Positions 727 to 60,170 of a stretch of 64,000 nucleotides of DNA are shown here, one piece after another. How positions within the stretch are numbered: the first letter of the stretch is position 1; each line of letters opens with the position of its first letter. The translations under genes and the position numbers were made by a program. The notes beneath the pieces are model-generated. The model made no database searches. It worked only from the letters and a program-made list of their open reading frames with translations, and was not told the origin of the DNA. The stretch comes from Siphonodentalium dalli (lineage: Eukaryota > Mollusca > Scaphopoda > Gadilida > Siphonodentaliidae): assembly GCA_032622095.1 (NCBI GenBank), contig CP136069.1, positions 64,030,819 to 64,094,818 of the forward strand. Direction: 5' to 3'.

Positions 727-730
727 TTTA

Positions 731-980
731 CCCTTTGATGACTGGAGCTTCCTCAATTTTTGCAAAAACCCTGTGCCAATGCATTTTCTTATATATGCGA
801 GTCGGCCATAGGGAGCCTCACATATATACTAGTAAGAGAATGCATTGGCCTAACAATATTAAACCCTGATCTTGTGAGCCAGTGCATTCTTATATATGCA
901 TAGGGCGCCTCGCATATATAAGAGAATGCACTGGCAAAGGGTCTTTAATGTGCACCAGCACACCTCCAGTCATGACAGGG
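731..980 (+). mobile_element. TTAA-type MITE, family C, decayed ends
   Basis: Contains the two family C hairpins: CCAATGCATTTTCTT pairing with AGAGAATGCATTGG, then CCAGTGCATTC pairing with GAATGCACTGG. The outer parts GACTGGAGCTTCC and CTCCAGTCATGA are also present. The terminal CCCTTT and CAGGGTTA are mutated, so the flanking TTAA is no longer intact. Confidence 0.85.
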
Positions 981-1277
981 TTATTATTAGTTTTGAACAA
1001 TTATGTCTAAAAAGGGAGTAGTGTTGTCAAATTAGTGTTTATTTTTGAGAAAAGTGTTTTGAAGCCTACTTTTTCAGAGGTGGCGTAATATAATGAGAAC
1101 CAACTTTGGACTCTATGTGTAATATATAATACAAAACTTTAAAAAAAAGTTCCCAGACCCCTGGATTTGAAAACTATAAGCTAGTCTCCTGACAGGCGCC
1201 ACATAAGAATTCTCGTCATTATTATCTATCTCGGTCACACTTTCATATCTGTATGCAGTTATTATTTCTAAAATCAG
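981..1277. other. No feature seen
   Basis: AT-rich sequence with short poly-A runs; no open frame or repeat structure supported. Confidence 0.5.
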
Positions 1278-1930: not shown

Positions 1931-2301
1931 TTAAAGTTTTACTAAACTTAAAGATAAGGTCTTTTTTACCAAGATAAAACTGTGAAACTTTTATAAAATT
2001 AGATTTTATGACACGTTACAATTACTTTAGTATCTCAGAAACAAACATAGAAGAGTTATGTCATGCACAAATACAACTTTATAAAAGAAGAAATAAACGA
2101 TCTTCAAATGAAAACCACACATGAATCACTGCCAAGAGTGGTCTAAGAACAGTATTAACATTTGTTGTCCTCACATGGACACTTGGTGTGATAAATCTTC
2201 TGTGGTGGTGATCTGATGTCTGAAGATTACTTGTTTGTGTACATGTGTTCATTTGTCCTTGTTTATAGCATTGATCTATCTTTGACTGATTTACTCAAGG
2301 T
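1931..2301. other. Mostly unannotated; repeat at 2195-2265
   Basis: No gene is seen. 2195-2265 is the partner of the repeat at 1625-1690. The rest is AT-rich with no structure recognised. Confidence 0.5.
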
Positions 2302-2553
2302 AAACCTTTCATGAGGTTCATGACAGGAGCTGCGCTGGTGCAGCATTAAAGATCATGTGCCAGTGCATTATCTTATATATGTGAGTCACCCATAGGGAGC
2401 GTCCCATATATAAGAGAATGGTATGGCTGACAATTTCAAGCTATATATAATGTTAGGCCAATGAATTTTCTTATATATGTGAAGCTCCCTATAGGAGACT
2501 CACTTATATAAGAGAATGCATTGGAACAGGTTTTTCGCAAAATTTCAAGGGTT
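2302..2553 (-). mobile_element. TTAA-type MITE, family C, right end lost
   Basis: Reverse-oriented family C with the GGAGCTGCGCTGGTGCAG end on the left, both hairpins, and CAGGTTTTTCGCAAAATTTC on the right. The final GGAAGCTCC and CATGAAAGGG are missing. Confidence 0.85.
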
Positions 2554-2554
2554 A

Positions 2555-3110
2555 TAATACACTCCTGATGGTGAACCTCTATGCCAAATTTCATTCAAAT
2601 CCGATAACGCATGGTTGAGAGCAATATTCACCAAGCCGGACAGACAAATTACAAATATTTCCAGATAATAAAGGAAGCTAACACTAGAAAGAAAAATGAA
2701 AACAATGTCATATAGCTCTATATTGAAAGCACTCCTTATTGTGAACCTCTGTACCAAATTTCATTCAAATCTGATAACGCATGGTTGAGATTGATATTCA
2801 CCAAGCTGGATGGACAAAATACAATTATTTCCAGATAACAAAGGTACGTAGCTAACACTAGAATGAAAAATTAAAACAATATCATATAGCTCTATATTGA
2901 ACCTCCCTACCAAATTTCATTCATATCCGATAAACAATTGCTGAGATATCTACATTGTCGAACAGAAACCAGTATTTCCAGATAATAAAGAAGGATAACT
3001 CTAGAATGGAATGTCACTGGGCCCTCTTTTCAAGCCGTCTCAATGTCGAAACTCGATACCAAATATTATTCAGATCCGATAACCCATAACTGATAAAAAC
3101 CATTTCGAAA
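2555..3110 (+). repeat. Tandem repeat, ~170-bp period, about 3 units
   Basis: The words GTGAACCTCT, CCAAATTTCATTC and ATTTCCAGATAA recur at steps of about 170 and 157 bp (2571, 2741, ~2898). The text resembles the ~174-bp array at 54780-55850, so both come from one diverged repeat superfamily. Confidence 0.8.
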
Positions 3111-3538: not shown

Positions 3539-3753
3539 CAGTAATGCCCTATTAAATATTCGACTCCTTAACCACAGCAGAATTATGGGTAATTTTTCAC
3601 GATTTAGTCGGAAATATGGCTTGTTGCCATTCATCGAAAGCTCTCAGTGAGAACTTTCCAATGAATGGCAACAAGCCATATTTCCGACTAAATCCTGAAA
3701 AGTTACCCATAATTCTGCTCTGGTTAAGGAGTCGATTATTTAGGGCATTACTG
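3539..3753. mobile_element. Family A palindrome, full length
   Basis: 215 bp, ends CAGTAATGCCC and GGGCATTACTG, near-perfect inverted repeat. The right flank is TA; the left flank is AA, probably a mutated TA. Confidence 0.92.
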
Positions 3754-10154: not shown

Positions 10155-10480
10155 ACAGCTTCCATGACTGGAGCTTCCTGAAATTTTGCAAAAAACCCTG
10201 TAACAATGCATTCTCTTATAAACCCTGTACCAATGCATTCTCTTATAAACCCTGTACCAATGCATTCTCGTATAAACCCGTGCCAATGCATTCTCTTATA
10301 AACCCTGTACCAATGCATTCTCTTATAAACCCTGTACCAATGCATTCTCTTATAAACCCTGTGCCAATGCATTCTCTTATATATGCAAGGCTCCATATGG
10401 GAGACTCACATATATAAGAGAATGCACTGACACAGGGTCTTTAATGCTGCACCATCACTGCTCCATTCATGAATAGGTTA
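10155..10480 (+). mobile_element. Family C MITE expanded by an internal minisatellite
   Basis: Family C outer parts are present: CTTCCATGACTGGAGCTTCC on the left, CATTCATGAATAGGTTAA on the right. The first hairpin is replaced by an array of its own left-arm sequence (10196-10392), leaving one normal hairpin. Confidence 0.85.
10196..10392 (+). repeat. 27-bp tandem repeat, ~7 units, from a family C stem arm
   Basis: Unit CCCTGTACCAATGCATTCTC plus TTATAAA, at 27-bp steps from 10196. One unit is a base shorter and has TCG for TCT. The last unit continues into the ordinary hairpin. Confidence 0.92.
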
Positions 10481-10526
10481 AAGTTACACACTTCATTTAT
10501 CATTCATCCCTTTCCTAAGCTATATA

Positions 10527-11735: not shown

Positions 11736-11811
11736 GGCTCCTTATCCAGCACCGCTGATCCCACCTCCCTCACCCACAACCACATCCCTGTCTAGCTGCT
11801 ACAAGAATTAA

Positions 11812-12035
11812 CCCTTTCATGACAGGAGTCACACTGGTGCAGCATTAAAGAACCTGTGCCAGTGCATTCTCATATATGCGATTCTCCCATAGGGAGCCTC
11901 GCATATATAAGGGAATGCACTGGCTTACAAGGTCAAGGTAAATATTGTTAGGCCAATCCATTCTCTTATGTATGCGAGAGAGACTTGCATACATAAGATA
12001 ATGCACTGGCTGGTTTTCGCAAAATTTCAGGAAGC
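11812..12035 (-). mobile_element. Family C MITE, right end truncated
   Basis: TTAA at 11808-11811 then CCCTTTCATGACAGGAG. Both hairpins present. The right side stops after AAATTTCAGGAAGC, where the next tandem array begins. Confidence 0.9.
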
Positions 12036-12039
12036 GACA

Positions 12040-12960
12040 AATACAGTGTATAGTGCTTAGTGAGTTTTTCATACATCATTTACAAAAGAGAGAGAGAGAC
12101 ATAGTGGCACTTTCAGAACATTGTGCAGATCTGAAGAGCAAAATTTTATTTACTATGCACATCACCGACTACATGTATGTCACAAAGGGCCCTTTGCCCC
12201 TCACTACAACTTGTATCGAACATCTGCCTCAAAAAGGATAAGTGCCATGCATAATGCTTAGTGAATTTTTCATATGTACGCCACTACACAAGAGAGAGAT
12301 GGCATAAAGGCACTGTCAGAGACATCATGCTGATCTGAACAGTACAGTTCATTTACTATGCACATTACAAGTCAAGTCCCCCAGCTACACAGAACATCTG
12401 CCTCTGTATGGTAAATGCAGTGTATAGTGCTTAGTGAATGTTTCATATACCATTACATAAATCAGTGCCTATTGGGAAAAGAACCTACTTCGTCATCAAT
12501 CGATGGCTTATGACGACCAAATACACTATGCACCTTACCCGACTAAGTCACCAGGGGGCCCCCTGCTATACGGAACATCTGCATCTATAGAATAAATGCA
12601 ACATATAGTACTTAGTGAATATTTGATACACCTTTACACAAGATAGCGACATCATAATGGCCCTGTCAGAACATTGTGCATATCTGACCAGCACGATTTT
12701 ATTTACTATGCACCTCACCAAATAAGTCACAAATGCGCGCCCTCCCCATCCCCACTATAACGAACATCTGAGCCTGTAAGGATAAATGCACTCACTGTGT
12801 ATAGTGCTTTAAGTGAGTTTTTCATACACCATTACACAAGAGAGAGACATATTGATGGCCCTGTCAGAGCATCATGCAGATCTGAACAACATGATGTTAT
12901 TTTTGCTCCCTAACTCTCTGTAGTACAGTGGTTTCTGACAGGACATGTCATCAGTCACGC
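12040..12960 (+). repeat. Satellite-like array, ~177-199-bp period, 5 units
   Basis: The phrase GTGCTTAGTGAGTTTTTCAT or close variants begins units near 12053, 12251, 12428, 12609 and 12804. Each unit also has ACAAGAGAGAGA, ATTTACTATGCAC and GAACATCTG. The units are well diverged, so the array is old. Confidence 0.88.
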
Positions 12961-13800: not shown

Positions 13801-13973
13801 CAGTAATGCCTGAAGTATATGACTCCTTAACCACAGCAGAATTATGGGAAATTTTTCAGGATTTAATCGTAAATATTGCTTGTTGCCATTCATTGGAAAG
13901 CTCTCACCGAGAGCTTTCTGATGAATGGCAGCAAGCCACATTTCTTAGTGGTCTATTATTTAGGACATAACTG
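13801..13973 (+). mobile_element. Family A, asymmetric subfamily A2
   Basis: The left end reads GCCTGAAGTATATGACTCC while the right reads GGTCTATTATTTAGGACATA, so the two ends do not pair. The same asymmetry is in 30320-30537 and 49191-49404. The right arm has an internal deletion here. Confidence 0.88.
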
Positions 13974-19052: not shown

Positions 19053-19394
19053 GATGTTAAAAATGACAGATAAATAAAAGTACAGAATGAGTCCTATTTA
19101 TTGTTAAGTTTGTTGAACTTATTATCTGGACATTTCCAATGGGATAACTACAGTAATGCCCTAAGTTATCGACTCCTTAACCACAGCAGAATTATGGGTA
19201 ACTTTTCAGGATTTAGTCGGAAATATGGCTTGTTGCCATTCATCGGAAAGCTCTCGGGGAGAGCTTTCCGATGAATGGCAACAAGCCATATTTCCGACTA
19301 ATCCTGAAAAGTTACCCATAATTCAGCTGTGGTTAAGGGGTCGATTACTTAGGGCATTACTGTACTTGTCAATGAAGATTTAGTATATAAAGGG
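19053..19394 (+). mobile_element. Family G MITE, left-truncated, split by family A
   Basis: 19053-19150 matches the middle of family G (TGACAGATAAATAAAAGTAC). The family A copy lies between AACTA and TACTTGTCAATGAAG. The rest of G continues to TTAGTATATAAAGGG at 19394. The final TTAA is mutated to ACAA. Confidence 0.82.
19151..19362. mobile_element. Family A palindrome, full length, nested in family G
   Basis: 212 bp with intact ends and TA on both sides. The family G consensus AACTACTCATCAATGAG, seen uninterrupted near 49771, supplies the empty site and shows that TA is the duplicated target. Confidence 0.95.
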
Positions 19395-23700: not shown

Positions 23701-23769
23701 TTGGAAAGGGAATAATTTCATGTGTTACAGTCAATGGAGGATTAGGAATGTGGAAAGTTGAAAGGCCTA

Positions 23770-24625
23770 GTTATGCAAAGAGTAAAATCCAAGATGGCTG
23801 CTGGCAGCCATGTTATTTTGCCGAATGACCCCAAAAAGACTCATTCCCATTTACATGTCATTGTTAACATCCATCACAAATTTCATGATGTTCGGACCAA
23901 AGATACGACTTATGGCCCGTGCCAAAGGATTTAGTCATGCAATGAGTAAAATCCAAGATGGTTGCTGGCGGACATGTTTTTGGCCGAATGACCCCAAAAT
24001 TACTCGTTCCCATCTACATGTCATTGTTAACATCCATGACAAATTTCATGATGATCGGACCAAAGAGACGACTTGTAGCCCGTGCCAAAGGATTAGTCAT
24101 GCAAAGAGAAAAATCCAAGATGGCTGCTGGCGGACATGTTTTTTGGCCGAACGACCCCATAATGTCTCGTTCCCATCTACATGTCAATATTAACATCCAT
24201 GACAAATTTCATGATGATCAGACGAACAGTACAACCTGTAGCCCATGCTAATGAATTGAATTTTGAAATCCAAGATGGCCACTAGCGGCCATGTTTTTTT
24301 GCCGAATGACCCCAAAATGACCCATTCCCATCTACATGTCAATGTCAACAGCCATGACAAATTTCATAATGATCCGACCAAAGGTACGACCTGTAGCCCG
24401 TGCCAAAGGATTTAGTCATACAAAGAGTAAAATCCAAGATGGCTGCTGGTGGCCATGTTTTTTGGCCGAACGACCCCAAAATAACTAGTTCCCATCTACA
24501 TGTCAATATTAACATCCATGACAAATTTCAAAATGATCAGACCAAAGCTACAACCTGTAGCCCTGCCAAAGGATTTAGTCATGCAAAGAGTAAAATCCAA
24601 GACGGCTGCTGGCGACCATTAGTCG
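23770..24625 (+). repeat. Tandem array, ~163-bp period, 5 units
   Basis: AATCCAAGATGGCTGCTGGC or variants begins units at 23788, 23952, 24114, 24269, 24433 and 24596. Each unit also has GCCGAATGACCCCAAAAT, ACATCCATGACAAATTTCAT and a GTGCCAAAGGATTTAGTCAT tail. Frames of 90-127 codons across it are repeat artefacts. Confidence 0.93.
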
Positions 24626-25320: not shown

Positions 25321-26050
25321 CAGAATTGGCACTTTCTTCCAACTTATAATCCAAGCTACAGCTTCAAATACAGTTAGTATATCCTGTCCCAATTATTTGA
25401 ACAAATTATATCCATTTAACACCCAAAAATGTATAATAAAGATATAGAAAGCTCATTTTCTTTAAGATATTTGATAAATTGGCTTGTGTAAATCTTCAAT
25501 ATGATAGATAAAACGACTAATCAAGTAATTTCCAATTCAGGAATCTATGTTCCATTATATCTGGTTATTCCTAATTTTTGTTTAGCATTGTTCCGCTTCC
25601 GGTTCCATGTTTTTTGAATTATGGTCAACTTTGAAAAGTTCCAGAAGCACAAAATTTGAATACTGAAAATCAATCTGGAGTTACAAATATGGAAGGTGAG
25701 TAAAATTTTGCATTGAAACAATCAATTGTTATGATAATATATACATTGGGAGTGTTTATTTGATGAAATGAATCCAAACAAAATATTGAGATACAATTTG
25801 AGCTTTTTTCATAGTATGTGCATGTACATCTACAAGGTCAATGTTAGAGAAATATTTTTCACAAATAATTTTGTGACATATCATGATTTAAGCAAATGTT
25901 CATTTTTCTAAACCCTACTCTAACAATTTAAACGGAGAAAATTTTAATTCAAATGACTATGGCTTACTTAACCCTTATCTGTTGAAAAAAGTATGGAAAG
26001 CCATTTCATTAATAATTTAATTAATTTAGTAATATTTAACTCAAGATTAA

Positions 26051-26570
26051 CTCTTTCAAGATGAGAGCTGCGCAGGTGCATTAACCCTTTACCCAACAAA
26101 CCGGCCAAAACCGGCCAAATAAAGCTTCAACAGCCTAAAATATCTTCGGTCTGTCTCAATAGAACCATACACATATGGATATCATTGGAACCGGCTCCTT
26201 GACCTCATTGTGATAGTTACAGTTATGCCCTGTGCCAATGCATTCTCTTATATATGCGAGTCGACCATAGGTCGCCTCGCATATATAAGAGAATGCATTG
26301 GCCTAAAAAAAATCTTTTTTTAACAGTTTTTACCATTTTTTCTTACATTCTTTAACAATTTTATAATTTTTAATGTGTTAAGCCAATGCATTCTCTTATA
26401 TATGCGAGGCGACCTATGGTCGACTCGCATATATAAGAGAATGCATTGGCACAGGGCCGTTCTGTTGGGTAAAGGGTTAAGAACCATGTGCCAGTGCTTT
26501 ATCTTATCGATGTGAATTGCCCATACATTGATTGGCACAGGGTTTTCAGGAAGCTCCAGATATGAAATGG
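26051..26570 (-). mobile_element. Family C MITE split by family D
   Basis: TTAA (26047-26050) then CTCTTTCAAGATGAGAGCTG on the left. CAGGAAGCTCCAGATATGAA and ATGG before TTAA (26571-26574) on the right. Interrupted at its internal GCATTAA by the family D copy at 26085-26476. Only one degraded hairpin remains. Confidence 0.85.
26085..26476 (+). mobile_element. Family D MITE (TTAA type), 392 bp, nested
   Basis: TTAA on both sides. Ends CCCTTTACCCAACA and TGTTGGGTAAAGGG. Has AACCGGCCAAAACCGGCC near the left end and two ~69-nt hairpins. Other family C copies read GCAGCATTAAAGAACC uninterrupted, so TTAA is confirmed as the duplicated target. Confidence 0.95.
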
Positions 26571-26932
26571 TTAAGCAAAATTAATAAAATGTTTCCAACT
26601 CTAATATTCTGAATATTCTTCTAATTTCAGATGCTGATAAGTCACCAGTGGTGGAAGATGAGAGTCGCCAAGATAGTGCAGGTGTTCAAAGCACTAATGA
26701 TTACTTACCGGAACCAAAATTCACAGCGACACATGTTGCTCATGGCAGGGTGATGTGACAGATATGTTTCACTGGTTGTGACCAAAAAAAAACAGTAAGA
26801 GGGCAGGATTTCAGAAGATTACTGACAATGACAAATTTGAAAGTTTTGCCGAACAATGGAAGAGTGTTGTTCATTCATACAATAAAGTTCATGAAATGGT
26901 GAATTGGACAGATCCGAGAGAAATATGGGCTC

Positions 26933-27490
26933 ATAAACAGTGTAAGTCCTCCTTTTTCGAAGAAGCTCACATAAAGTCACAACATAAAATACTATCGCCT
27001 CCACAATCATCTCCGAAAGTTAACCAAATCCAGGACAAACTAAATTCAAATGATTCTGTTTCATCATCCATGGTTTGACGCAGTGCTAGGAGAGTTCTAA
27101 AGCACACATCATCATGGAAGAATGAGGAGAAGAAGAGTTGCATTACTAGTATATGTAATAAGGACATATACACCAAAGGAAGACTAATTCCTGTACAAAC
27201 AATTACAATAACACAGAAAGTTGAAACTACATTGAAAGAATTAGTCTTCCTTTGGTGTATATGTCCTTATTACATATAATGCAACTCTTCTTCTCCTCAT
27301 TCTTCCATGATGATGCATACTTTACAACTCTCCTAGAACTGCGTCGAACCGTGGGTGATGAAACAGAATCATTTGAATTTAGTTTGTCCTGGATTTGGTT
27401 AACTTTCGGAGATGATTGTGGAGGCGATAGTATTTTATGTTGTGACTTTATGTGAGCTTCTTTGAAAAAGAAGGACTTGCACTGTTCATC
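26933..27490. repeat. Foldback: pseudogene exon segment inverted and duplicated
   Basis: Arms 26933-27190 and 27238-27490 are reverse complements with small indels and about a 47-nt loop. The left arm is the 3' part of the broken gene; the right arm is its inverted copy. Both arms therefore show the same 67-69-codon frame running antisense to the original exon. Confidence 0.93.
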
Positions 27491-29138: not shown

Positions 29139-29262
29139 TTAAAACTGTTCTGATAGTTTGATTTTCCAAATTTGTTTTCTCAGATCAAAGTCGACGTTTT
29201 CCTACTTTCTGGACTAAACTGCCTATCAGTTCGAAATTTTCCAACCATATAGGGGGTGTTAA

Positions 29263-29616
29263 CTCTTCCACGACTGGAGCTTCCTGGAATTTAGCAAAAA
29301 CCCTGTGCAAATGCATTCTCTTACATATGAGAGTCTCCCATAGGGAGCCTCACATATATATGAGAATATGCATTGGCCTAACAGATTTGACCTTGACATT
29401 GTAAGCCAGTGCATTCCCTTATATTTGCAAGTATCCCTATGGGAGCCTTGCATATATATGAGAATACACTGGCTTAATTACACGGTCAAGGTTAGTATTG
29501 TTAGGCCAATGTATTCTCTTATATATGCGAGGCTCCCTATGGGAGACTCTCATATATAAGAGAATGCATTGGCACAGGGTTTTCGCAAATTTTAGGAAGC
29601 TCCTATCATGGAATGG
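29263..29616. mobile_element. Family C variant with three hairpins and two like ends
   Basis: TTAA on both sides (29259-29262, 29617-29620). Both ends are of the same family C type: GACTGGAGCTTCCTGG on the left and the inverse of ATGATAGGAGCTTCC on the right. Three hairpins lie between (near 29308, 29406, 29502). It looks like two family C copies fused in inverted orientation. Confidence 0.88.
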
Positions 29617-29955
29617 TTAAGTTATTATTGTCTAGGAATCTGCATCTCTATAACTAGTGCTGATGCACTGTACTTAACATAGCTACATGCCACCCTATAT
29701 TATCATGAAATTCGCAATAATTCTTAACAAATGTCCATTCGGTTTCTGTATCTTATTCTTAATGTTTATTTTTTCTGCTCATATTGACATTGTTTATCAC
29801 ATCCACTTAACTATGGTTCCGTATACCACTCAAACTTCTCACTGCTAAGAATGTTGTCTCCATTTGTAGTAACTGCAATAAATTATTCAATATAATTAAT
29901 GACACAAATAGGTAACAATCTTATAAATATTATAGTACTCTCAACTCCTCTGGGT
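29617..29955 (-). repeat. Dispersed repeat P, copy 2
   Basis: Reverse complement of 16654-16982 over about 330 bp, with few differences. The left edge coincides with the TTAA at the right end of the three-hairpin family C copy. Confidence 0.9.
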
Positions 29956-30537: not shown

Positions 30538-30889
30538 TACCCTTATAAATATGAAAGTAGGTTTAACCTAACTTCTAAATGATCGTACAGCAATCTGATT
30601 CAAGTTTTAAAAAACTCAACAACCATTCCTGTAGAGCACAAACAACATCTGCAGAAAGGTGGAATTCCTGCTGAGATTTCTTCATCTAATGACTCTCATC
30701 ACCAGGAGTGGCAGCATGGAACATGGCAAGCATATGTCCCTAGATTACCTCCCTTTGACGAACCAGATTACCCACCAGCTAATTCCCCTAAAGACCCTGT
30801 AACTTATGTCTACATGTCCAAATGAGCAGAATACTTTTATAAAGCAAAATTACAGAAATGTGTGGAGTGCGAACTACATCAATGAGTAT
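30538..30889. other. No feature seen
   Basis: A proline-containing frame near 30720-30820 is too short to support. Confidence 0.45.
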
Positions 30890-31050
30890 ATATAAGAGAA
30901 TGCATTGGCCAAACAATATTTACTTTGACCTTGTAAGCTAGTGCATTCTCTTATATATGTGAGGCTCTGTATGGGAGATTCACATTAAGAGAATGCACTG
31001 GCACAGTATCTTTTATGCTGCACCAGCATGGCTCCCGTCATATGAAAGGT
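30890..31050 (+). mobile_element. Family C MITE, left half missing
   Basis: Begins inside the right arm of the first hairpin (AAGAGAATGCATTGGCC). The second hairpin and the GGCTCCCGTCATATGAAAGG end before TTTAA are present. Confidence 0.85.
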
Positions 31051-31059
31051 TTAATTCAA

Positions 31060-31530: not shown

Positions 31531-32171
31531 AATTTGATATATTCTGTAATTCTGAATTTAAAGCCATGGAAGCGGTTGGTAATAATATTGAAATGTTATT
31601 GGAATTTCATGTTTGAACTTAGCTAGTAAATGTCAAGTGGGAAAAAGATATCGTACACAAGCATACATCACCTAAAATCATATGTTCTTCTTGAGGTGTC
31701 AAAATTTTATATATTTCGGCATTTGCCAGAATATGTTTGCACAGTGCTACAACTGATGATTTCTTGTGTTTTTATACCATGAAATAAGTGTTAGGTGACT
31801 CGAGTACCACCATTGCTGGTATTTGGCACTGGTAATTAATATATAATTTATTGAATAAATATGCAGCAGCAACTGATTGGCGATTATTTCACATGATCCT
31901 GGTGAACGCAAATTTCATATATTCACTTGAATATTTTTTGTGAATAAAAATAAAACAAACACATTAATATAATATCTCAATAATTCTCATTGTCCCATGC
32001 TATTATGAATGATAGAATGGTTTGGTGAGAGACTTAGTCTTACTCAACAGCATGAGCAATTGCACAAATGTTTTTTATTTTTGGGGGGGGGATTTAAAAA
32101 ACAATTTGTATTTTGCAAAGTTATTGGCGTGTTCATAAACCCACTAATTAAATTGGTGTTGCCCAATTTAA
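31531..32171. other. No feature seen
   Basis: AT-rich, nothing recognised. Confidence 0.5.
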
Positions 32172-32340
32172 CCCTTTCAGTGCCAAGTCTGATTTTTGTA
32201 TCAACCCATATTTCCTTGATCATTTTTCAAATGTATTGATTATAATAATGTGATACATTGATGGAAAGATTATCAATAAATTTGAAAAATGATCAAGGAA
32301 ATATGGGTTGATACAAAAATCGGACTTGGCACTGAAAGGG
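32172..32340. mobile_element. Family E palindromic MITE (TTAA type)
   Basis: 169 bp, TTAA at 32168-32171 and 32341-32344. Ends CCCTTTCAGTGCCAAGTC and its complement. The arms pair almost perfectly. Confidence 0.95.
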
Positions 32341-32416
32341 TTAACAACATAATTTCTATTTTTTTTTTTTATAAATTCCACTAAGAGGTTGCACTACTGA
32401 GTGGTCTTGTTCGCAG

Positions 32417-33102: not shown

Positions 33103-33804
33103 AGCCCCGTTAATTAGTGTCGGCTATCGGCTGAGCTGAGGCAAATGACTAGGAAAAAAGACATTTTGTCGGCTATATTTTCGATGAGGCAAATTTAGAA
33201 CATGCAAATGTTTTGTGCAAAATTGAAAGAACTTGCTGCAGACATTGTCTTTCTGTCGCAATTAAGATTTTAAGCCAGAGCCAACCAAAGTCTGTCATGA
33301 TAATGGACCAATTAACCCTTCACCCAACAGAACGGCCATGTGCCAATGCATTCTCTTATATATGCGAGTCGACCATAGGTCGCCTCGCATATATAAGAGA
33401 ATGCATTGGCTTAACACATTAAAAATTATAAAATTGTTAAAGAATGTAAGAAAAAATGGTAAAAAAAGATTTTTTTTAGGCCAATGCATTCTCTTATATA
33501 TGCGAGGCGACCTATGGTCGACTCGCATATATAAGAGAATGCATTGGCACAGGGCATAACTGTAACTATCACAATGTGGTCAATGAGCCGGTTCCAATGA
33601 TATCCATATTTGTATGGTTCTATTGAGACAGACCGAAGATATTTTAGGCTGTTGAAGCTTTATTTGGCCGGTTTTGGCCGGTTTGTTGGGTAAAGGGTTA
33701 AGTTCCAATATTAAACTGAAATTACACCTGGTATGTGTAGAGCATGCAACTATGCAGATCAAAGGCTTTTAGCCGAGGACATTTCTCTGGCCCAGGAAAT
33801 GTTT
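33103..33804 (+). mobile_element. Family I element split by family D
   Basis: Starts AGCCCCGTTAATTAGTGTCG and has the family I words GCTGAGCTGAGGCAAA and GAACTTGCTGCAGACATTGT. After the nested family D copy it continues with GTTCCAATATTAAACTGAA and CTCTGGCCCAGG. The right end is replaced by half a family A copy. Confidence 0.75.
33316..33697 (-). mobile_element. Family D MITE (TTAA type), nested in family I
   Basis: TTAA at 33312-33315 and 33698-33701. Reverse orientation, two hairpins. The related family I copy near 35957 reads GGACCAAGTTCAATC without an insert, marking the empty site. Confidence 0.95.
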
Positions 33805-35491: not shown

Positions 35492-36082
35492 CAGCCCTGT
35501 TAAAATTAACATCGGCTGAGCTAAGGCAAACGCCTAGGCAAAATGAAATTTCATCAGCTATATTTGAGCCGAGGTAAATTTCAGAACCTGCCAATGCTTT
35601 TTTGCAAAATTAAAGAACTTGCTGCAGGCATTGTCTTTGTGTTGTATCTACAGTAATGCCCTAAGTAATCGACTCCTTAACCACAGCAGAATTATGGGTA
35701 ACTTTTCAGGATTTAGTCGGAAATATGGCATGATGCCATTCATCGGAAAGCTCTCACTGAGAGCTTTCCGATGAATGGCAACAAGGCATATTTCCGACTA
35801 AATCCTGAAAAATTACCCATAATTCTGCTGTGGTTAAGGAGTCGATTATTTAAGGCATTACTGTAGTTGTGGAAGTCTGCAGACAGTAAACATTTATTGT
35901 AGAATGCAAAGGACTACAGGTATTTTGATAAATCAGCAATTCTAAGCCAGTCATGATATGGACCAAGTTCAATCATAAACTGAAGTTATATGGGGTATGT
36001 GAGGGACATGCAAATTTCTGGCCTAAGCACTGGCCTAAGCAATTTTTTAGCCCAGGCCAATTTCTGATAATTAACAGGGCTG
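35492..36082 (+). mobile_element. Family I element split by family A
   Basis: Ends CAGCCCTGTTAA and TTAACAGGGCTG, about 376 bp without the family A insert. No convincing target duplication. The ~60 bp before it (from 35430) are also duplicated before the partial copy at 45731, so a larger segment was copied. Confidence 0.75.
35651..35863. mobile_element. Family A palindrome, full length, nested in family I
   Basis: 213 bp, TA on both sides. The paralogous segment near 45887-45900 runs uninterrupted from TTGTCTTTGTGTTTG to GTTGTGGAAGTCTG, giving an empty site. Confidence 0.95.
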
Positions 36083-37223: not shown

Positions 37224-37435
37224 CAGTAATGCTCTAAGTAATCGACTTCTTAACCACAGCAGAATTATGGGTAATTTTTCAGGATTTAGTCGGAAATATG
37301 GCTTGTTGCTATTCAACGGAAAGCTCTCCCTGAGAGCTTTCGGATGAATGGCAACAAGCCATATTTCCGACTAAATCCTGAAAAATTACCCATAATTCTG
37401 CTGTGGTTATGGAGTCGATTAATTAGGCATTACTG
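37224..37435. mobile_element. Family A palindrome, full length
   Basis: 212 bp, TA on both sides, ends CAGTAATGCTC and GGCATTACTG. Confidence 0.93.
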
Positions 37436-38705: not shown

Positions 38706-39366
38706 CTTTAAAATGAGCCCCTGTGATTGGTAAACACCCACGAAAATTGAACACTGAAAATTAAAAAACAAAAAAGTGTTATGTAACAATGTGGTGAGTA
38801 TTATTCCAAAGTCATATCATTTCGTCTGAATTTTTTATTTGAAGAAAGAACTCAATTGAGCATGTACATGTAGTTTTAAAAACATGCTCTTACAAGGAAC
38901 AAATATATTATCTTACACAATTTATATCAACAAAAAGTATATCAGCAGTTTTTTATTTTAACTGTGCATGGTAGCTACTAGTAAATCGCCACCAGTCATA
39001 ATTAATGAGACACATACAAACATGTATCGGTCATTAGGGCATTTTCGGCTGGTCATTGACCATGACCGGACACTTATTTCCAGACTCAGATGAGTTGGAA
39101 ACTCAAAAGTTGCACCTCTCCTCACATAAGAGGTGCTCTAATAACCATTCCTGGTCTGAAGGTGTTGTCATTGACACTCTCAAATGCGATAATCAATGCC
39201 TTTTCTACTTATGTAAAAGTGTGGTACTGCCCTTACCATGGAGTGGGGTACGAGGTACCGCATGCAAGCACAATCAATCCATCAATATATTACTTATTAA
39301 CAGGATTCATATACTTGGATCGTGTTCAAATTCAAGGACTTTTCAAGGATTCCAAAAGCATTTTAA
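38706..39366. other. Mostly unannotated; satellite J piece at 39190-39310
   Basis: 39190-39310 has CTACTTATGTAAAAGTGTGG and AAGCACAATCAATCCATCAA words of satellite J, out of the order of the main array. The rest shows nothing. Confidence 0.5.
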
Positions 39367-39757
39367 CCCTTTACCCAACAGAACGGCCCTGTGCCAATGC
39401 ATTCTCTTATATATGCAAGTCGACCATAGGTCGCCTCGCATATATAAGAGAATGCATTGGCTTAACACATTAAAAATTAAAAAATTGTTAAAGAATGTAA
39501 GAAAAATGGTAAAAAGTGTTAAAAAAAGATTTTTTTTAGGCCAATGCATTATCTTATATATGCGAGGCGACCTATGGTCGACTCGCATATATAAGAGAAT
39601 GCATTGGCACAGGGCATAACTGTAACTATCACAATGTGGTCAAGGAGCCGGTTCCAATGATATCCATATTTGTATGGTTCTATTGAGACAGACCGAAGAT
39701 ATTTTAGGCTGTTGAAGCTTTATTTGGCCGGTTTTGGCCGGTTTGTTGGGTAAAGGG
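39367..39757 (-). mobile_element. Family D MITE (TTAA type), 391 bp
   Basis: TTAA at 39363-39366 and 39758-39761. Two hairpins. AAACCGGCC inverted near the right end. Almost identical to 33316-33697. A 187-codon frame that runs into it is an artefact. Confidence 0.95.
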
Positions 39758-39954
39758 TTAAAGGACCTCACTCAACAAAACTTATAAATAGATTAGGTTA
39801 ATAATATATCTATAAAGTTATACATTGTAAGTTTTTTTTCATCAAAGACTTTCAATGAATTCATAAAGTGCTCAGATTGTTGAAATTTGTAACTTAAATT
39901 ATACAACAGTGTATGCGTTGCAACTTGCAAGAATTTTTCAATAACAAAAAATGC

Positions 39955-43832: not shown

Positions 43833-44065
43833 CAGTAATGTCCTAAATAATCGACTCCTAAATTACAGCAGAATTATGGGAAATTTTTCAGGATTTAGTC
43901 GGAAATATGGCTTGTTGCCATTCATCGGAAAGCTCTCGCTGAGAGCTTTCAGATGAATGGCAACAAGCCATATTTCTGACTAAATCCTGAAAAGTTACCC
44001 ATAATTAATTCTGCTGTGGATAAGAGGTCGATTAATTAGAGCATTACTGTCCTTCGGGCATTACT
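43833..44065. mobile_element. Family A with duplicated right terminus
   Basis: TA-flanked. The right arm ends GCATTACTG and then, after TCCTTCGG, repeats GCATTACTG. An ATTA duplication also lies in the right arm. Confidence 0.92.
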
Positions 44066-44520: not shown

Positions 44521-45229
44521 AACATATTTGTTGTTGTTGGAATCTGATGATATGGTGATCATTGAATCGGATTGAGTACCTTTAATGAGAAATGTTTTAT
44601 GTTTTGCTGCACTATTCACACTCATTATTGGATTAATGTTTACAAGACACAACTGCAAGACATGGAATTTTAATAGCTATTTCGCAAGATTTCTGATTCT
44701 AATTCCAGAAAGTCACCCTAATAAACTTGAGGTTCTATTCGGAAGAGAAGATTGCAATTATAAGATTTCTGCCCATCACAGGAAGGCATGCACCATGGAC
44801 ATCACCAACTGAGTCAACGGAGGGGTTAAACACTGAACACAAATACTAGAAAGTTTAGAACCTGATGCTGTTGACTTTAAAAGTTTGTCAGGCTGAAAAG
44901 TCTCATTCGAGATCACTAAATAACGATCCGAATGCAAAATGCCGACTTCCCCCATTACAACATTTGTCCAGGTATGTTGTCATGGGTGCAGAACATTGTC
45001 CGATCGGGCATGGACATTAATGGTTGACCCATGTACACGCCTCGGTGTGTGCATGTTAAAGAACAGTCACCACAGGGTTATAAAGTTACTCGGCCGTGGT
45101 AGCACCTGGACCAGTGCGTCTATAACCGAAAAGTTCCTGCACTGCAATATCTACAGATAGTGAGTTCAGTGAAAGCACCAATGACCAGTTCTAGTATCAG
45201 CACAGTCAATGATAACACAGCCTTGATAA

Positions 45230-45485
45230 CCCATCCATGACTGGAGGTTCCTGATATTTTGCGAAAACCCTGTTCCAATGCATTCTCTTATATATATGCG
45301 AGTCTCCCATAGGGAGCCCCGCATATATAAGAAAATACATTGGCCTAACAATATTTACCTTGACCTTGTAAACCAGTGCATTCTCTTATATATGCGAGGC
45401 TCCCTATGGGAGACTGGCATATATAAGAGAATGCACTGGCACAGGATCTTTAATGCTGCACAGCGCAGCTCCTGTCATGAAAGTG
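45230..45485 (+). mobile_element. Family C MITE
   Basis: Left CCCATCCATGACTGGAGG, two hairpins, right CAGCTCCTGTCATGAAAGTG before TTAA. The left flank is GATA-like, so the left TTAA is mutated. Confidence 0.9.
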
Positions 45486-45617
45486 TTAATCATCTGATTA
45501 CAGTCAGACAAGGTTTTTTTCAAATCAGTTCATCACAAAATGATAATTTATTTTCTGTGTTGCACTATTCTCTCAACTGGATTAATGTTTTCACAAGATA
45601 TGAACTTTTAATACCTA

Positions 45618-46665: not shown

Positions 46666-46872
46666 GTAATACTCCAAATAATCGACTCCTTAACCACAGC
46701 AGAATTATGGGTAACTTTTCAGGATTTAGACGGAAATATGGCTTGTTGTCATTCATCGGAAAGCTCTCGGTGGGAGCTTTCCAATGAATGGCAACAAGCC
46801 ATATTTCCGACTAAATCCTGAAAAATTACCCATAAATCCGCTGTGATTAGTCGATTATTTAGAGCATTACTG
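46666..46872. mobile_element. Family A palindrome, full length
   Basis: 207 bp, TA on both sides, ends CAGTAATACTC and GAGCATTACTG. The change in the left end is mirrored in the right (CTC / GAG). Confidence 0.92.
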
Positions 46873-47291: not shown

Positions 47292-48755
47292 ATGGCTCAG
47301 AAGTTCAACATCACCATTCTATGATCTAATAAGTAGTATATATATAAAACCATTATGGTGAGTAAGAACACCATTAATACAGTCAGTAAATATATTTTAT
47401 ATCTCACAGGGTTAGAGTGAAAGACAACAACTGGAACGCGTTAAATAACTACCTGTTTAGAAAAACACAATTATTTACAGGAAGCCGATACAATAAATGT
47501 AGTAGTAACAAATACAAACATGTGAGTGACAATTTTTTGAGGCACAATAATCGCATATAATTGACACCAATCGAGAATTTATTCCCAAACAAACCAAAAA
47601 CAAACAAAAACAAAAAGGGGAGGGAGGGTTTTCAAAATTAGCGACCAACTTCACCCGTCAATTTATTGGAAAGAAAGTTAACACAACCGCTTCGCGCATC
47701 CCTTCTGACAAAAAATATAGTTCCCTCGATTCTGCTTGGCGAATTATTCCAATTGCAAACTAAATGGCATTACTGCCAAAATTGCTGTACTTTATAATTA
47801 TGTTTTAATTTCGTCTAAGTACTTCGCAACATCAGTGTATAACCTTACTTATCTGAAATGTCATGCGTTATGGTGTAGTGATCTATGCCAGTGAAAGATT
47901 TTGGTGCCAAACATGTTTGCGTTTTACACAATTTTGGTTTAAATTACACATCTGGTTAACCATTTGGGATAAAATACGTCGCTCTTATATGACTATGGTT
48001 TAAATATGCACACTGGTATACATGTATGATAAAAAAGTCACTTCTTAAGGAATCAATTTAAAATGCATAAGTTCAGTTATTTAAATCAGGTCTGGTATGA
48101 TGCCCCCTTAAATACTTGACATAAATAACAATCAAGAACAGCATAGATTGCCCATATCATAAGCAGCCGCAAAGACATAGAATCTACTCACTTTAACTTG
48201 ACCTTTGAAGAACAAACCATACCAGTTCCCGGCCGTGACTATAAACTCGGTGAACACCAGACAATAATACATAAAATTTTCTCCTTGACATAGAAATTAA
48301 GCGCAAGAACTTACTCAACCAACAATTTTAAGACTGAATATGAAAACCAGCTTTGTGCGAAAATTTTTAATTCACACATATTTGATGTCATATCTCAATA
48401 ATAATTGCATTGTGATAAAATATGCAGGTCATGAATCAAAATCAGATAACAGGTTTTCCACCAAGTGTCAAAATGATCATTAAGGCATAAAAAGGCAGCT
48501 GAATTTTTAAAGAGCAATTTCATGAGAGTGACGAGTCTTTAATTATAAACAGAATAATTCATGCAAGTTTATGTTTTGAATTAGAATTGAGTGTAAATTT
48601 GTGTTATGATTATCTGACTAGCCATACAGGTCACGCAATTATCACATTTTAGTATAGATGCTAAAACACGTACTCTTTTGCCTACTGCTTTAATTATCGA
48701 AACAAAAAGAAGTGTAGCCTAGAGGGCGACTTGGTATAGACATATTCTCCCTTAA
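47292..48755. other. No feature seen
   Basis: The longest element-free stretch of the window. AT-rich, no open frame over 60 codons, no repeat found. Confidence 0.55.
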
Positions 48756-49130
48756 CCCTTTACCCAACAAACCGGCCAAAACCGGCCAAATAAAGCTTCA
48801 ACAGCCTAAAATATCTTCGGTCTGTCTCAATAGAACCATACAAATATGGATATTATTGGAACCGGCTCCTTGACCACATTGTGATAGTTACAGTTATGCC
48901 CTGTGCCAATGCATTCTCTTATATATGCGAGTCGACCATAGGTCGCCTCGCATATATAAGAGAATGCATTGGCCTAACACTTTTTACCATTTTTTCTTAC
49001 AATCTTTAACAATTTTATAATTTTTAATGTGTTAAGCCAATGCATTCTCTTATATATGCGAGGCGACCTATGGTCGACTCGCATATATAAGAGAATGCAT
49101 TGGCACAGGGCCCTTCTGTTGGGTAAAGGG
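48756..49130 (+). mobile_element. Family D MITE (TTAA type), 375 bp
   Basis: TTAA at 48752-48755 and 49131-49134. Hairpins at 48905-48973 and 49036-49104, each 69 nt with the outer stem GCCAATGCATTCTCTTATAT. Has AACCGGCCAAAACCGGCC near the left end. Confidence 0.96.
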
Positions 49131-49190
49131 TTAATAAATGTGTCACTTCTCCCTAATTTTGTCCCAGAGAGATGTGACTTCTCTCATATA

Positions 49191-49404
49191 CAGTAATGCC
49201 CGAAGTATATGACCCCTTAACCACAGCAAAATTTATGGTGAATTTTCAGGATTTAGGCGGAAATATGGCTTGTTGCCATTCATCGGAAAGCTCTCGGTGA
49301 GAGCTTTCCGATGAATGGCAGCAAGCCATATTTCTGACTAAATCATGATTTTTTTTTTGATAATTCTGCTGTGGTTTAGGGGTCAATTATTTAGGACATT
49401 ACTG
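49191..49404 (+). mobile_element. Family A, asymmetric subfamily A2
   Basis: TA on both sides. Left GCCCGAAGTATATGACCCC, right GGGGTCAATTATTTAGGAC. Full length with a T run in the right arm. Confidence 0.93.
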
Positions 49405-49586
49405 TACCAGTATGTAGTATATGTTTCAACATTTAGGCAAGAACTTTAAACCTGTATACCAACAGAAACAGACTGTTGATTGTCATGGAGCAAAGTATTC
49501 CAATCTGATAGCATAATATGACCTCATCCTTGAAAGTGCCTGCAAATTTGCAAAATATCTTTTGTTTGGGACAAATGTGCGCTTAA

Positions 49587-49805
49587 CCCTTTCTATACTA
49601 AATGGTTTCTCTTATCCAGTTATAAAAGTACACATTGGAATTGTCTACTAATCAACTGCAGGGGTTTTCAGGAAAAATAAGCAGATGACAGATAACAAAA
49701 GTACAGAAGGTGTCCTATTTAATTGAGGGAAATGTTCAGATAATAAGTTTATGTGATTATTTCCTAAGGCAACTACTCATCAATGAGTATTTAGTATATA
49801 AAGGG
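49587..49805 (+). mobile_element. Family G MITE (TTAA type), full copy, 219 bp
   Basis: TTAA at 49583-49586 and 49806-49809. Ends CCCTTTCTATACTAAATG and ATTTAGTATATAAAGGG are inverted repeats. The middle is not palindromic. Confidence 0.92.
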
Positions 49806-50439
49806 TTAATCCTTGACTTCTGACTAAAATGTGCCCTTTTATGGAAGTTCTGCCCCTTACACTTAGTTTCTTCCAGTGTCCCTGACTAGACAATGAGTCA
49901 AAGACTACTCACCATTAGCCGATTCTCTTGGAGATAGGAATAATCCAATCACGTAACAGGTTATATCTGATAGATGGTATAATAATCCAATCACGTAACA
50001 AGTTACATCTCATAAAACAACCGGAACATCTAATTTCTTCTTGCTGCCCCTCCGTACCCTGAAGCAAAAAAAAACAAACAGAGTTTCACAATTTGCCAGA
50101 AAGCATGTGTTTAGTGGAGAAATAATCTGCAGTTAAAAAATCAATATGGGCAATAGGCAATCCACTTATATGAGATTTTTTTCAATACGGAACAAAAACT
50201 AAATCTGTTATCGTGTGACAGAGCTGAACCGATATAAATCGGAAATTAGCAGAGACCAACGACTGAAAGCATCAATCTCGAGTATCTGGTTTATCTTAAT
50301 GTGTTCATGGGTGCGTTTTCATGATGGCATTGTATGAGAGCGGGGCTATTATATGGGGCATGTTGCGTGAATTACTGAGATATCTGTATAAAAGCAACGG
50401 GTTGTCTCTTGGAGAAAATGTCCTGTTTAGGTCGATTGC
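49806..50439. other. No gene; one short direct repeat
   Basis: AATAATCCAATCACGTAACA occurs twice, near 49947 and 49980. Nothing else recognised. Confidence 0.5.
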
Positions 50440-51689: not shown

Positions 51690-52382
51690 AAAGAGTAACT
51701 TAGAAGGTGACATGAAAGATGCTATATATATGACATGAAAGCCGCTATATATGACACGAAAGATGCTATATATATATATATATGACATGAGAGACGCTAT
51801 AAATATATGCCATGAAAGATGCTATATATATTTATGTGACATGAAAGATGCTATATATATATACGTGACATGAAAGATGCAATATATGTGACATGAACGA
51901 TGCTGTATATGTGACATGAAAGATGCTATATATGACAAGAAAGATGCTATAAATATATGACATGAAAGACACTATATATATTTATGTGAAAGACACTATA
52001 TATATGTGACATGAAAGATGCAATATATGTGACATGAAAGACGCTATATATGACACGAAAGATGCTATATATATATATATATGACATGAGAGACGCTATA
52101 AATATATGCCATGAAAGATGCTATATATATTTATGTGACATGAAAGATGCTATATATATATACGTGACATGAAAGATGCAATATATGTGACATGAACGAT
52201 GCTGTATATGTGACATGAAAGATGCTATATATGACATGAAAGACACTATATATATTTATGTGAAAGACACTATATATATGTGACATGAAAGATGCAATAT
52301 ATGTGACATGAAAGACACTATATATATTTATGTGAAAGACACTATATATATGTGACACGAAAGATGCTATATATGTGACATG
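51690..52382 (+). repeat. ATATAT-rich minisatellite with higher-order repeat
   Basis: About 30 units of TGACATGAAAGATGCTATAT with variable TA runs. A block starting TGACACGAAAGATGC at 51752 is repeated almost exactly at 52051, 299 bp on, with one unit lost later. The 85-codon reverse frame is periodic and not a gene. Confidence 0.93.
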
Positions 52383-53230: not shown

Positions 53231-53518
53231 ATAAACTCTTTTTCTCCTGCCATCATAATTAGCAATATGGGAAAATTCATACATTAATCAAAGGGGTTAC
53301 TGTGAGCAGTGTACATGAGTTGGTCGTTAAATGGGACCACATGCTGGTGATTACAGGGGATATTATAAAAAAAACAACAGGTTGTCCAAGGAAGAAAACA
53401 TTTCATTTCTATGTCAATTGTGCAAAATATCGATGTGTCACATCAAACCTTAGCATCTTTTAATAGGCACAATATGTTATTTAGACACAATTATTGATTA
53501 AGAAAATTAGTTAATTAA

Positions 53519-53746
53519 CCCTTTCATGAATGGAGCATCCTGAAATTTTGCAAAAACCCTGTGCCAATGCATTCTCTTACATATGTGAGTCTCCCATATA
53601 TAAGAAAATACATTGGCCAAACAATATTTACCTTGATCTTGTAAGCCAGTGCATTCTCTTATATATGCGAGACTCCCTATGGGAGATAATGCACTGGCAC
53701 AGGATTTTTAATGCTGCACCAGTGCAGCTCCGGTCATGAAAGGGTT
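53519..53746 (+). mobile_element. Family C MITE with damaged hairpins
   Basis: TTAA at 53515-53518, CCCTTTCATGAATGGAGC, right CAGCTCCGGTCATGAAAGGG, then TTTTAA. Both hairpins have lost parts of an arm. Confidence 0.9.
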
Positions 53747-54779: not shown

Positions 54780-55930
54780 CTATCACTTCATTGAAAGCCC
54801 TTGTGATGGTGAAAATCTATAATAAATTTCACTGAAAACCTATATTATAAACCCATTGCTGAAATAACCAGGACAGACACAAAACAAGAGATGGACTGTC
54901 GTCCAGTGCATACCCCCTTGTGGCATACCGCCTTGTGTGGGCATATCTATAAATTATGACTGCTATACTCAGACAGATGGACCCAAAAATCAGCATTTTC
55001 ATATAAACAAAGATGAATAACTATAGAACGAAAAACCAAAACAACAGTTGAATATGCCATTAAATGTCCTCATAGTGGTGAACATCCAAACCAAATTTCA
55101 TTCAGATCCGAGCATTACTGTTCAAGTTATCGCCTGAACAGACATCAGATGGACCAAAAAGCCAACATTTCCATATAAACAAAAAATGAATAATTAAACT
55201 CTATAACGGAAACTCGAACAAAACGATTGAATCCTCTATTGAATGTCCCCATAATAGTGAACATCCATACAAAATTTCATTGAGATCTGAGGACTACTGT
55301 TCAAGTTATGACCTGAACAAACATAGGATGGACCAAAAAGCCAACATTTCCAGATAAACAAAGATGAATAACTCTAGAATGGAAAAACCAAACAAAACAA
55401 TGGAAACCTCTATTGAATGTCCTCATAGTAGTGAACATCCATACCAAATTTCATTGAGATCCGAGCACTACTGTTCAAGTTATGACATGAACAGACACCA
55501 GACAGACCAAAAATCCAACATTTCCAGATAAACAAAGATGTATAACTCTAGAATGGAAAATCCATTCAAAACGATGGAACACTCTATTTAATGTTCTCAC
55601 AGTAGTGAACATCCAAACCAAATTTCATTAAGATCCCAGCACAACTGTAGAAGTTACGACATGAACAGACACCAGAGGGACCAAAAAGCCAACATTTCCA
55701 GATAAACAAACATGAATAACTCTAGAATGGAAAATCCAAATAAAACGATTGAAACGTCTATTTAATTTCCTCATAGTAGTGAACATCCATACCTAATTTC
55801 ATTGAGATCCTGGCACTGCTGTTCAAGTTATGACATGAACAGACATCGGAAAGACGTACAAACGGACGCACGGACGGACAGGTGCAAAAAAAATACCCTC
55901 CCTTTTTTTTTTAAAGGGGGTATAAAAACA
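54780..55930 (+). repeat. Tandem array, ~174-bp period, 5-6 units, with terminal hairpin
   Basis: GTGAACATCC is at steps of 179, 174, 174 and 174 bp (55081 to 55782). Units contain ACCAAATTTCATTGAGATCC, GTTCAAGTTATGAC and CATTTCCAGATAAACAAAG. Before it is AACAAGAGATGGACTG with inverted GCATACCCCC and GGGCATAT. After it is ACGGACGGACAGG and a hairpin ATACCCTCCC / GGGGGTAT. This looks like one long dispersed element with an expanded body. Confidence 0.85.
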
Positions 55931-58267: not shown

Positions 58268-58357
58268 TGTACTGTTATAATGCAAACATGCCTTCAAAAT
58301 GAGTTTGATCAAAATTTTGTTGTTGAAAGTGTTGCCAAGATAGAGATAACATTTTAA

Positions 58358-58612
58358 CCCTTCCATGATAGGAGCTGCGCTGGTGCAGCATTAAAGATCA
58401 TGTGTCAGTGCATTCTCTTACATATTCGAGTCTCCTGTAGGGAGCCTCGCATATATAAGAGCATGCACTGGCTTACAAGGGCAAGGTAAATATTGTTAGG
58501 CCAATGTATTCTCTTATATATGCGAGGTTCCCTATGGGAGACTTGCCTATATAAGAGAATGCATTGGCAAAGGGTTTCCGAAAAATTTCAGGAAGCTCCA
58601 GTCATGGAAGGG
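58358..58612 (-). mobile_element. Family C MITE, 255 bp, intact ends
   Basis: TTAA at 58354-58357 and 58613-58616. CCCTTCCATGATAGGAGC on the left and CTCCAGTCATGGAAGGG on the right. Two hairpins. Confidence 0.95.
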
Positions 58613-59067
58613 TTAAATGTTATGAATTTATAATAAATGAAAAGTTTTCCTAGTCGAGAACATAACATACAAGTTGTCGCCTGGTTTTCACAGAATTTAT
58701 CAGTCAGCCAGCCATGCTCATCCAGGCCTGCAATGATCCCATATCATCAATTCCTTTAACGTCTTTTTCCATTCTGAAATTAAAATATATTTTACAACTC
58801 GATTAATATTAATAAGAGTTACGTTTGTGATGATCACATAAATATTAATCCTTGACAACCTCTCACAGGCTTCTGTCTAAAGATGCACTCAATCGGAAAT
58901 AACTCCCAACAAAAACTCCAAATTCTGTGGTACAGATACCTGGATAAAGAACCTTCAGATCACTATACTACTATAGTACAGTGACCTTATGACACAATGA
59001 ATTAAAGGCTGCCGGCCACATGTCTACCAAATAAGGTGGCTTTATTTGTCAGGTCGCTTTTATAGAA
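58613..59067. other. No feature seen
   Basis: Nothing recognised. Confidence 0.5.
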
Positions 59068-59480: not shown

Positions 59481-59547
59481 GGGTGTATAAAAATTTATTC
59501 TGGAAACAACCATTGAATCAAACTTTGTTTCCAACTGTCTATATTAA

Positions 59548-59799
59548 CCCTTCCATGACTGGACCTTCCTAAAATTTAGCAAAAACCATGTGCCAATGCA
59601 TTCTCTTATATATGCGAGTCTATAGGGAGTCTCGCATATATTAGAGAATGAATTTGCCTAACAATATTTACCTTGACTTTGTAAGCCAGTATATTCTCTT
59701 ATATATGCAAGGCTCTCTATTGGAGACTCACATATATAAGAGAAAGCACTGGCACAAGATCTTTAATGTTTCACCAACGCAGCTTCTGTCATGAAAGGA
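59548..59799 (+). mobile_element. Family C MITE, 252 bp
   Basis: TTAA at 59544-59547 and 59800-59803. CCCTTCCATGACTGGACC on the left, CTTCTGTCATGAAAGGA on the right, two hairpins. Confidence 0.93.
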
Positions 59800-60170
59800 T
59801 TAACAAATTTTATTAGACATCAGAATAATAAAACTGAAGTTATCACCAGGAAACCTAAATAATCAGCAAATTAGAAGTCAACAAGGACAATAACTCCAGT
59901 AAAAATTGGCGGACCGACCCCAATTTGAACTTGACCTGTATTTTCATGTGAGTATTGAGTAAGCCATATACCAAATTTAAAAACAATCAGTTACTATAAC
60001 TGAAGTTATCATTTGGAAACCAAAATAAACGGCAAATTATAGGTCAACAAGGAACATAACTCTGGTAAAAATGGGAAGACCAAACCCAAATTCATTCTTG
60101 ACCTGTATTTTCATGTGGGTAATTACAATTTTAAGAAAATGAGATAACTGATATAGAACTAGAGGTGGGC
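59800..60170 (+). repeat. Two rounds of a ~190-bp repeat
   Basis: GAAGTTATCA, GGAAACC, GTCAACAAGGACAATAACTC and TTGACCTGTATTTTCATGTG occur near 59835-59950 and 60000-60120. Related to 23340-23700 and 59068-59480. Confidence 0.7.

Follow-up and report, generated by a model that had tools for sequence, protein, structure and literature searches.

Hairpins shared by two TTAA-flanked MITE-like families of Siphonodentalium dalli, and arm copying as a probable source of their paired changes

Two families of short repeated elements, C and D, occur in the 64,000-nt stretch of Siphonodentalium dalli DNA analysed here (the window), and carry hairpins with a common outer stem whose cores differ between the families on both arms, with pairing kept. 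Such double changes raise the question of whether the folded form is maintained or one arm has been copied onto the other. The original prediction offered both options; the few available events favour copying of an arm or a whole hairpin over selection on the fold.

The family D element that carries the two hairpins under study, and the other D copies in the window, are as follows:

48752..49134, forward strand: family D element of 383 bp, counting the TTAA at each end, with termini CCCTTTACCCAACA / TGTTGGGTAAAGGG
48905..48973, forward strand: hairpin 1 of this element, with 27 outer pairs, a T·C mismatch, 5 inner pairs and the loop ATA
49036..49104, reverse strand: hairpin 2 of this element, the reverse complement of hairpin 1; the inverted repeat that the two belong to has 86-nt arms, 98% complementary
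26081..26480, forward strand: D copy within a TTAA of the family C copy at 26047-26574
33312..33701, reverse strand: D copy
39363..39761, reverse strand: D copy

Each hairpin is 69 nt long (48905-48973 and 49036-49104), made up of 33-nt arms and a 3-nt loop, and as single-stranded DNA the two fold with z-scores of -15.6 and -16.0, respectively. A score-threshold scan of the window found 27 such hairpins, 19 in family C and eight in family D; degraded hairpins around 26487-26535 (in a C copy) and a lone arm near 30887 were missed by the scan and are outside every count given here. Allowing up to three mismatches, the outer-arm pattern occurs 54 times, whereas 100 shuffles gave a mean of 0.00. 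Hairpins of ~69 nt with an outer stem common to both families are thus present as originally described, as are the two inner stems, TCTCCC-ATA-GGGAGC in C and TCGACC-ATA-GGTCGC in D. The T·C mismatch in the stem (columns 28/42) is retained in 21 of the 27, in both families.

The four D copies differ by 5-6 substitutions per copy pair over 377-399 compared positions. All four have TTAA at both ends and inverted termini (CCCTTTACCCAACA), their hairpins lie at unequal distances from the two element tips, and in three of the four the hairpin pair is exactly reverse-complementary. The same core change is found on all 16 arms of the eight D hairpins. The nested copy (26081-26480) lies in a TTAA internal to C. 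When its flanks are joined, they align across the insertion point to the C copy at 58354, which has no such insertion; the host C copy was therefore in place before this D element, which targeted TTAA.

Family C is represented by 11 degraded copies, including the host of the nested D copy:

728..984, forward strand: C copy, degraded
2300..2556, reverse strand: C copy, degraded
10158..10482, forward strand: C copy with one mixed-arm hairpin (10363-10431) and a 27-bp tandem array (10193-10381)
11808..12042, reverse strand: C copy with the alpha terminus lost and mixed outer arms in the hairpin at 11952-12010
26047-26574: C copy hosting the nested D copy
29259..29620, no strand assigned: C copy with three hairpins, two alpha ends and TTAA at both ends, duplicated in inverted orientation about its middle hairpin (29405-29473)
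30880..31054, forward strand: partial C copy
45226..45489, forward strand: C copy made up of alpha end, A/T hairpin, spacer, G/C hairpin and beta end, with TTAA at the beta end only
53515..53745, forward strand: C copy with an internal deletion in both hairpins
58354..58616, reverse strand: C copy, TTAA at both ends
59544..59803, forward strand: C copy, TTAA at both ends

TTAA is found at both ends of four of these copies, at one end of five and at neither end of two; the better-preserved copies have the terminus CCCTTYCATGAC. The two ends are distinct. The alpha end (CCCTTCCATGACTGGAGCTTCCTGAAATTTTGC...) adjoins a hairpin with CCAATGC/GCATTGG in its outer stem, and the beta end (CCCTTTCATGACAGGAGCTGCGCTGGTGCAGC...) one with CCAGTGC/GCACTGG. 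The alternation between these stems that was originally noted within C is real, and it is positional: eight of the 19 C hairpins, all beside an alpha end, have A/T on both arms; another eight, beside a beta end or in the middle of the three-hairpin copy, have G/C on both arms; and three are exceptions, with mixed arms (at 10363 and 11952) or one changed arm (at 2359). Being positional, it is best read as a single ancestral change inherited by many copies. The array at 10193-10381, with about seven copies of a 27-bp unit made up of CCCTGTG and the outer hairpin arm, looks like slippage at a palindrome; together with the mixed-arm hairpins (10363-10431, 11952-12010) it shows that these palindromes have been rearranged or altered in other ways too.

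The two families have a module in common, CCCTGTG - hairpin - spacer - inverted hairpin - CACAGGG. When one copy per family was compared (the D copy at 48752 and the C copy at 45226), this was the only long sequence common to both, and the terminal parts matched only briefly, mainly over the first 6-10 bases. Both families look like short, non-coding, non-autonomous MITEs of piggyBac type, a class that is assigned by ends and target site alone because no transposase was found in the scanned frames. The window (36% G+C) has a single closed ATG/GTG/TTG open frame of at least 150 codons, of 187 codons; in the search for a transposase, none of the 10 frames scanned, out of 45 of at least 90 aa, had a Pfam match at the curated cut-off, and no autonomous partner was found in the scanned part of the window. 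As a side observation, a 213-nt inverted repeat (26933-27145 / 27277-27489, 94% complementary) has open frames overlapping on both strands.

The elements resemble piggyBac MITEs in their TTAA target-site duplications, in inverted termini that start with CCC, commonly CCCTT (CCCTTTACCCAACA in D, CCCTTYCATGAC in C), and in being short and present in several copies without a long open frame; CCCTT is the most conserved piggyBac end motif according to a passage in PMC10813416. They differ in having two inverted 69-bp palindromes as an internal module common to two families with differing termini. Kolobok elements, whose KolobokP lineage is richest in bivalves, also use a TTAA target, but have RR..YY termini (excerpt of PMC9587614); the termini here begin with CCC instead of the required 5'-RR and YY-3', and Kolobok membership was rejected. 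No exact match was found in IMG/VR to the D terminus or to either form (A or G) of the outer arm, nor in GTDB genomes to the two arm forms; neither collection is one of animal genomes. The element's sequence strings were found in no paper in the full text of open-licence PubMed Central, and among the matches listed there for piggyBac MITE hairpins or palindromes and for template switching, taken by their titles and the starts of their abstracts, the element is undescribed. The elements add members to a known kind; it is the shared palindrome-pair module that is unusual.

Other repeats are plentiful in the window. Short elements at 32168-32344 and 49583-49809 have TTAACCCTTT at both ends and different internal sequence, so that the window seems to hold several families of piggyBac-type MITEs. 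Tandem arrays of about five copies each lie at 23768-24619 (163-bp unit) and 54974-55847 (174-bp unit), and a degenerate one, with the unit GACATGAAAGATGCTATATATA, at 51707-52382. A further palindromic family, with long arms around a 3-nt centre and 16 matches, was used as a control; its copies at 46719 and 49246, which were fully read, are flanked by TACAGTAAT-like inverted ends. Its matches include, among others:

8-110: control family match
1742-1843: control family match
3597-3698: control family match
13856-13944: control family match
19206-19307: control family match
35706-35808: control family match
37279-37381: control family match
43888-43990: control family match
46719-46821: control family match
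49246-49348: control family match

Scored naively over 22 distinct rows, the C and D hairpins covary: the covariation score is 0.105 versus 0.070 in shuffles, and there are 18 two-sided cells versus 6.4, with 0 of 500 shuffles reaching either value. The number of pairs bearing a two-sided change (6 versus 3.8) was reached by 63 of the 500. Fourteen of the 18 two-sided cells fall at just three pairs: pair 5, where the C hairpins differ by position, and the neighbouring pairs 30 and 31, where C and D differ. Of the remaining four, three are at CpG pairs 24 and 25 and one is at pair 19. Covariation at these three pairs, fixed by family or by hairpin position, is a matter of two or three inherited events.

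Within copies the pattern is one of decay. Changes relative to each subfamily consensus affect 78 of the 817 pair cells scored (a further 47 are gapped): 72 are one-sided (55 broken, 17 G·U) and six two-sided, with pairing restored in four. The pattern named in advance as telling against a maintained fold, unpaired substitutions no fewer than paired ones, is what the copies in the window show. By permutation of C arms, the six double changes observed compare with 4.9 expected (p=0.36), and five of them are at CpG pairs; without CpG pairs the figures are one observed and 2.0 expected. Pairs 24 and 25 change at a rate of 0.286 in C copies, versus 0.055 for the remaining outer stem, and double changes there were discounted as covariation evidence because both arms carry CpG. 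Within copies, then, no excess of paired changes beyond shared descent is seen (6 versus 72, p=0.36). A·C mismatches number 22 and G·U mismatches 17, about equally many, which gives no sign of a wobble-tolerant transcribed strand. The control family in the same window, from which 11 of the 16 matches were used and five half copies dropped, has 36 one-sided and no two-sided changed cells.

The hairpins are also little different from their surroundings in rate of change. With CpG excluded, change rates are 0.069 for hairpins, 0.066 for the spacer, 0.115 for alpha ends and 0.087 for beta ends, based on seven of the 11 C copies (the tandem-array copy at 10158, the partial copy at 30880, the three-hairpin copy and the nested-D host were omitted). 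Hairpins compared with all other C parts (58/845 versus 75/819 changed) give p=0.087, because alpha and beta ends change more. Some pair-breaking variants outside CpG are shared, at columns 62, 58 and 18 in five, three and three hairpins, respectively; this suggests that lineages bearing mismatches probably spread, with recurrent mutation as the alternative.

Between consensus sequences the picture is different. All three differences among the C1, C2 and D consensuses are two-sided, versus six of 78 within copies (Fisher p=0.001); with the adjacent pairs taken as one event, the comparison is two of two versus six of 78 (p=0.009). Pairing has therefore been better kept in source lineages than in dead copies. 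To judge from the shared mismatch variants and the retained T·C mismatch, it does not seem to have been a requirement there.

On balance, the hairpins are probably an internal module of two TTAA MITE families, and their paired changes the product of arm or hairpin copying followed by neutral decay. In a source element, template switching or gap repair at the palindrome would overwrite one arm or a whole hairpin with the sequence of another, giving a few paired lineage changes, and the altered source element would then spread; once inserted, the copies decay with no detectable pairing constraint. A selected RNA product would be unnecessary. The identical core change on all 16 D arms is not what separate compensation in each hairpin predicts. 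That change, TC to GA on one arm and GA to TC on the opposite one, is transversional, and so involves no passage through G·U.

The element at 29259-29620 provides further material. Its halves are inverted copies of each other (121 of 140 aligned columns identical), and the variant 24 C>A is present in both of its outer hairpins but absent from the other 23 hairpins that can be read at that column, although column 24 is a fast-changing CpG column, which weakens this as evidence of copying. In its middle hairpin the loop is inverted relative to the mismatch, the only such case among 22 informative hairpins (five of the 27 were dropped for lack of a readable mismatch or loop, or for a T·T at the mismatch), and two point changes at the mismatch could give an identical appearance. 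A passage in PMC8794818 presents the combination of loop inversion and paired change as the hypothesised strongest support for template switching, and as extremely rare in rRNA data. The case here is like the hairpin evolution by template switching in that excerpt in showing paired changes of several bases, an inverted loop and inverted copies at hairpins, and unlike it in that the excerpt deals with RNA genes, for which selection on pairing is assumed, rather than decaying transposon copies. In the C copy at 728, the segment 775-849 is changed on one arm only at each of the two core positions that distinguish C from D, and is possibly a one-armed intermediate.

The evidence of copying is all in few or single cases, the three-hairpin copy and the inverted loop included, and some observations restrict how copying could have worked. 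Retention of the T·C mismatch in 21 of 27 hairpins means that copying has not covered the entire stem, and that the tract copied at pairs 30-31 must be very short. The control family (36 one-sided changes, no two-sided) indicates that copying is infrequent. The retention of pairing in all three consensus changes counts against copying to the extent that it would also be expected from selection in source elements.

Such selection need not be on RNA. A transposase dimer might bind the palindromes as DNA, keeping them intact in source elements and leaving the copies to decay once they are irrelevant; we regard this as unlikely, although several features are compatible with it. In piggyBac, paired cysteine-rich domains bind 19-bp subterminal palindromes placed asymmetrically to the two tips (excerpt of PMC11707139), and the unequal tip distances of the D hairpins are similar in this respect. 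The module is the only long sequence that the compared C and D copies have in common, the three consensus changes kept pairing, and hairpins are slightly less changed than the remaining C parts (p=0.087). A 69-bp palindrome is, however, much longer than a 19-bp site, and binding to duplex DNA would presumably need a short symmetric core, not 32 matched pairs. Broken-pair variants common to three to five copies, and a hairpin change rate not below that of the spacer, also speak against a bound site.

Copying might also be dispensed with altogether, the three paired differences being independent substitutions on both arms or the result of a different core donor. Just two or three events are available, recurrent mutation yields double changes at CpG pairs, and the one-armed changes at both core positions in 775-849 mean that core sites can change without pairing. 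This reading is nevertheless improbable given the contrast between consensus differences and changes within copies (three of three versus six of 78 two-sided, p=0.001; p=0.009 for two of two) and the identical change in both hairpins of each D copy.

That the hairpins are small-RNA precursors, microRNA-like or siRNA-like, with a selected RNA fold, is very improbable, despite their strong folding, a size near that of microRNA precursors and a covariation score above all 500 shuffles: stem conservation is no higher than the spacer's, there is no excess of G·U or of paired changes within copies, and the hairpin pair would fold into one long duplex. As RNA, the separate hairpins have a predicted free energy of -110.9 kcal/mol versus -158.2 for a single inter-hairpin duplex, and so are 47 kcal/mol less stable; a longer stretch likewise folds into a single stem. 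A microRNA precursor has a terminal loop suited to Drosha/Dicer, and here there is a 3-nt loop with a competing duplex. Animal pre-microRNA hairpins are similar in length (about 70 nt) and in having a long stem, and differ from these, with their 3-nt loop, near-perfect stem and two inverted occurrences. The microRNA-like reading drawn earlier from size and stem is not supported: a comparison of all 64,000 bases with 4227 Rfam families gave no match at the gathering score, and the loop, the competing duplex, the lack of G·U bias and the lack of a paired-change excess within copies led us to reject a microRNA-like precursor. As far as sequence can tell, such a function is unlikely.

Returning to arm copying, a wider version of it can be proposed, which is possible if rather doubtful: that the palindrome-pair module was exchanged between two MITE families, and its four arms rewritten in concert by hairpin copying, without selection on the fold. 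Arm copying would be marked in these elements by two internal features, the T·C mismatch and the orientation of the loop, and the C and D families, collected genome-wide, could test it directly because their decayed copies give a neutral rate. If the proposal is true, concerted copying of arms would generate fully compensatory changes, and fresh inverted duplications as well, with no selection for a fold. The hairpins already illustrate how a high covariation score can be produced by two or three events inherited within a mobile element rather than by a selected RNA fold, and if the proposal holds, covariation tests of RNA structure would have a natural neutral control in transposon palindromes of this kind.
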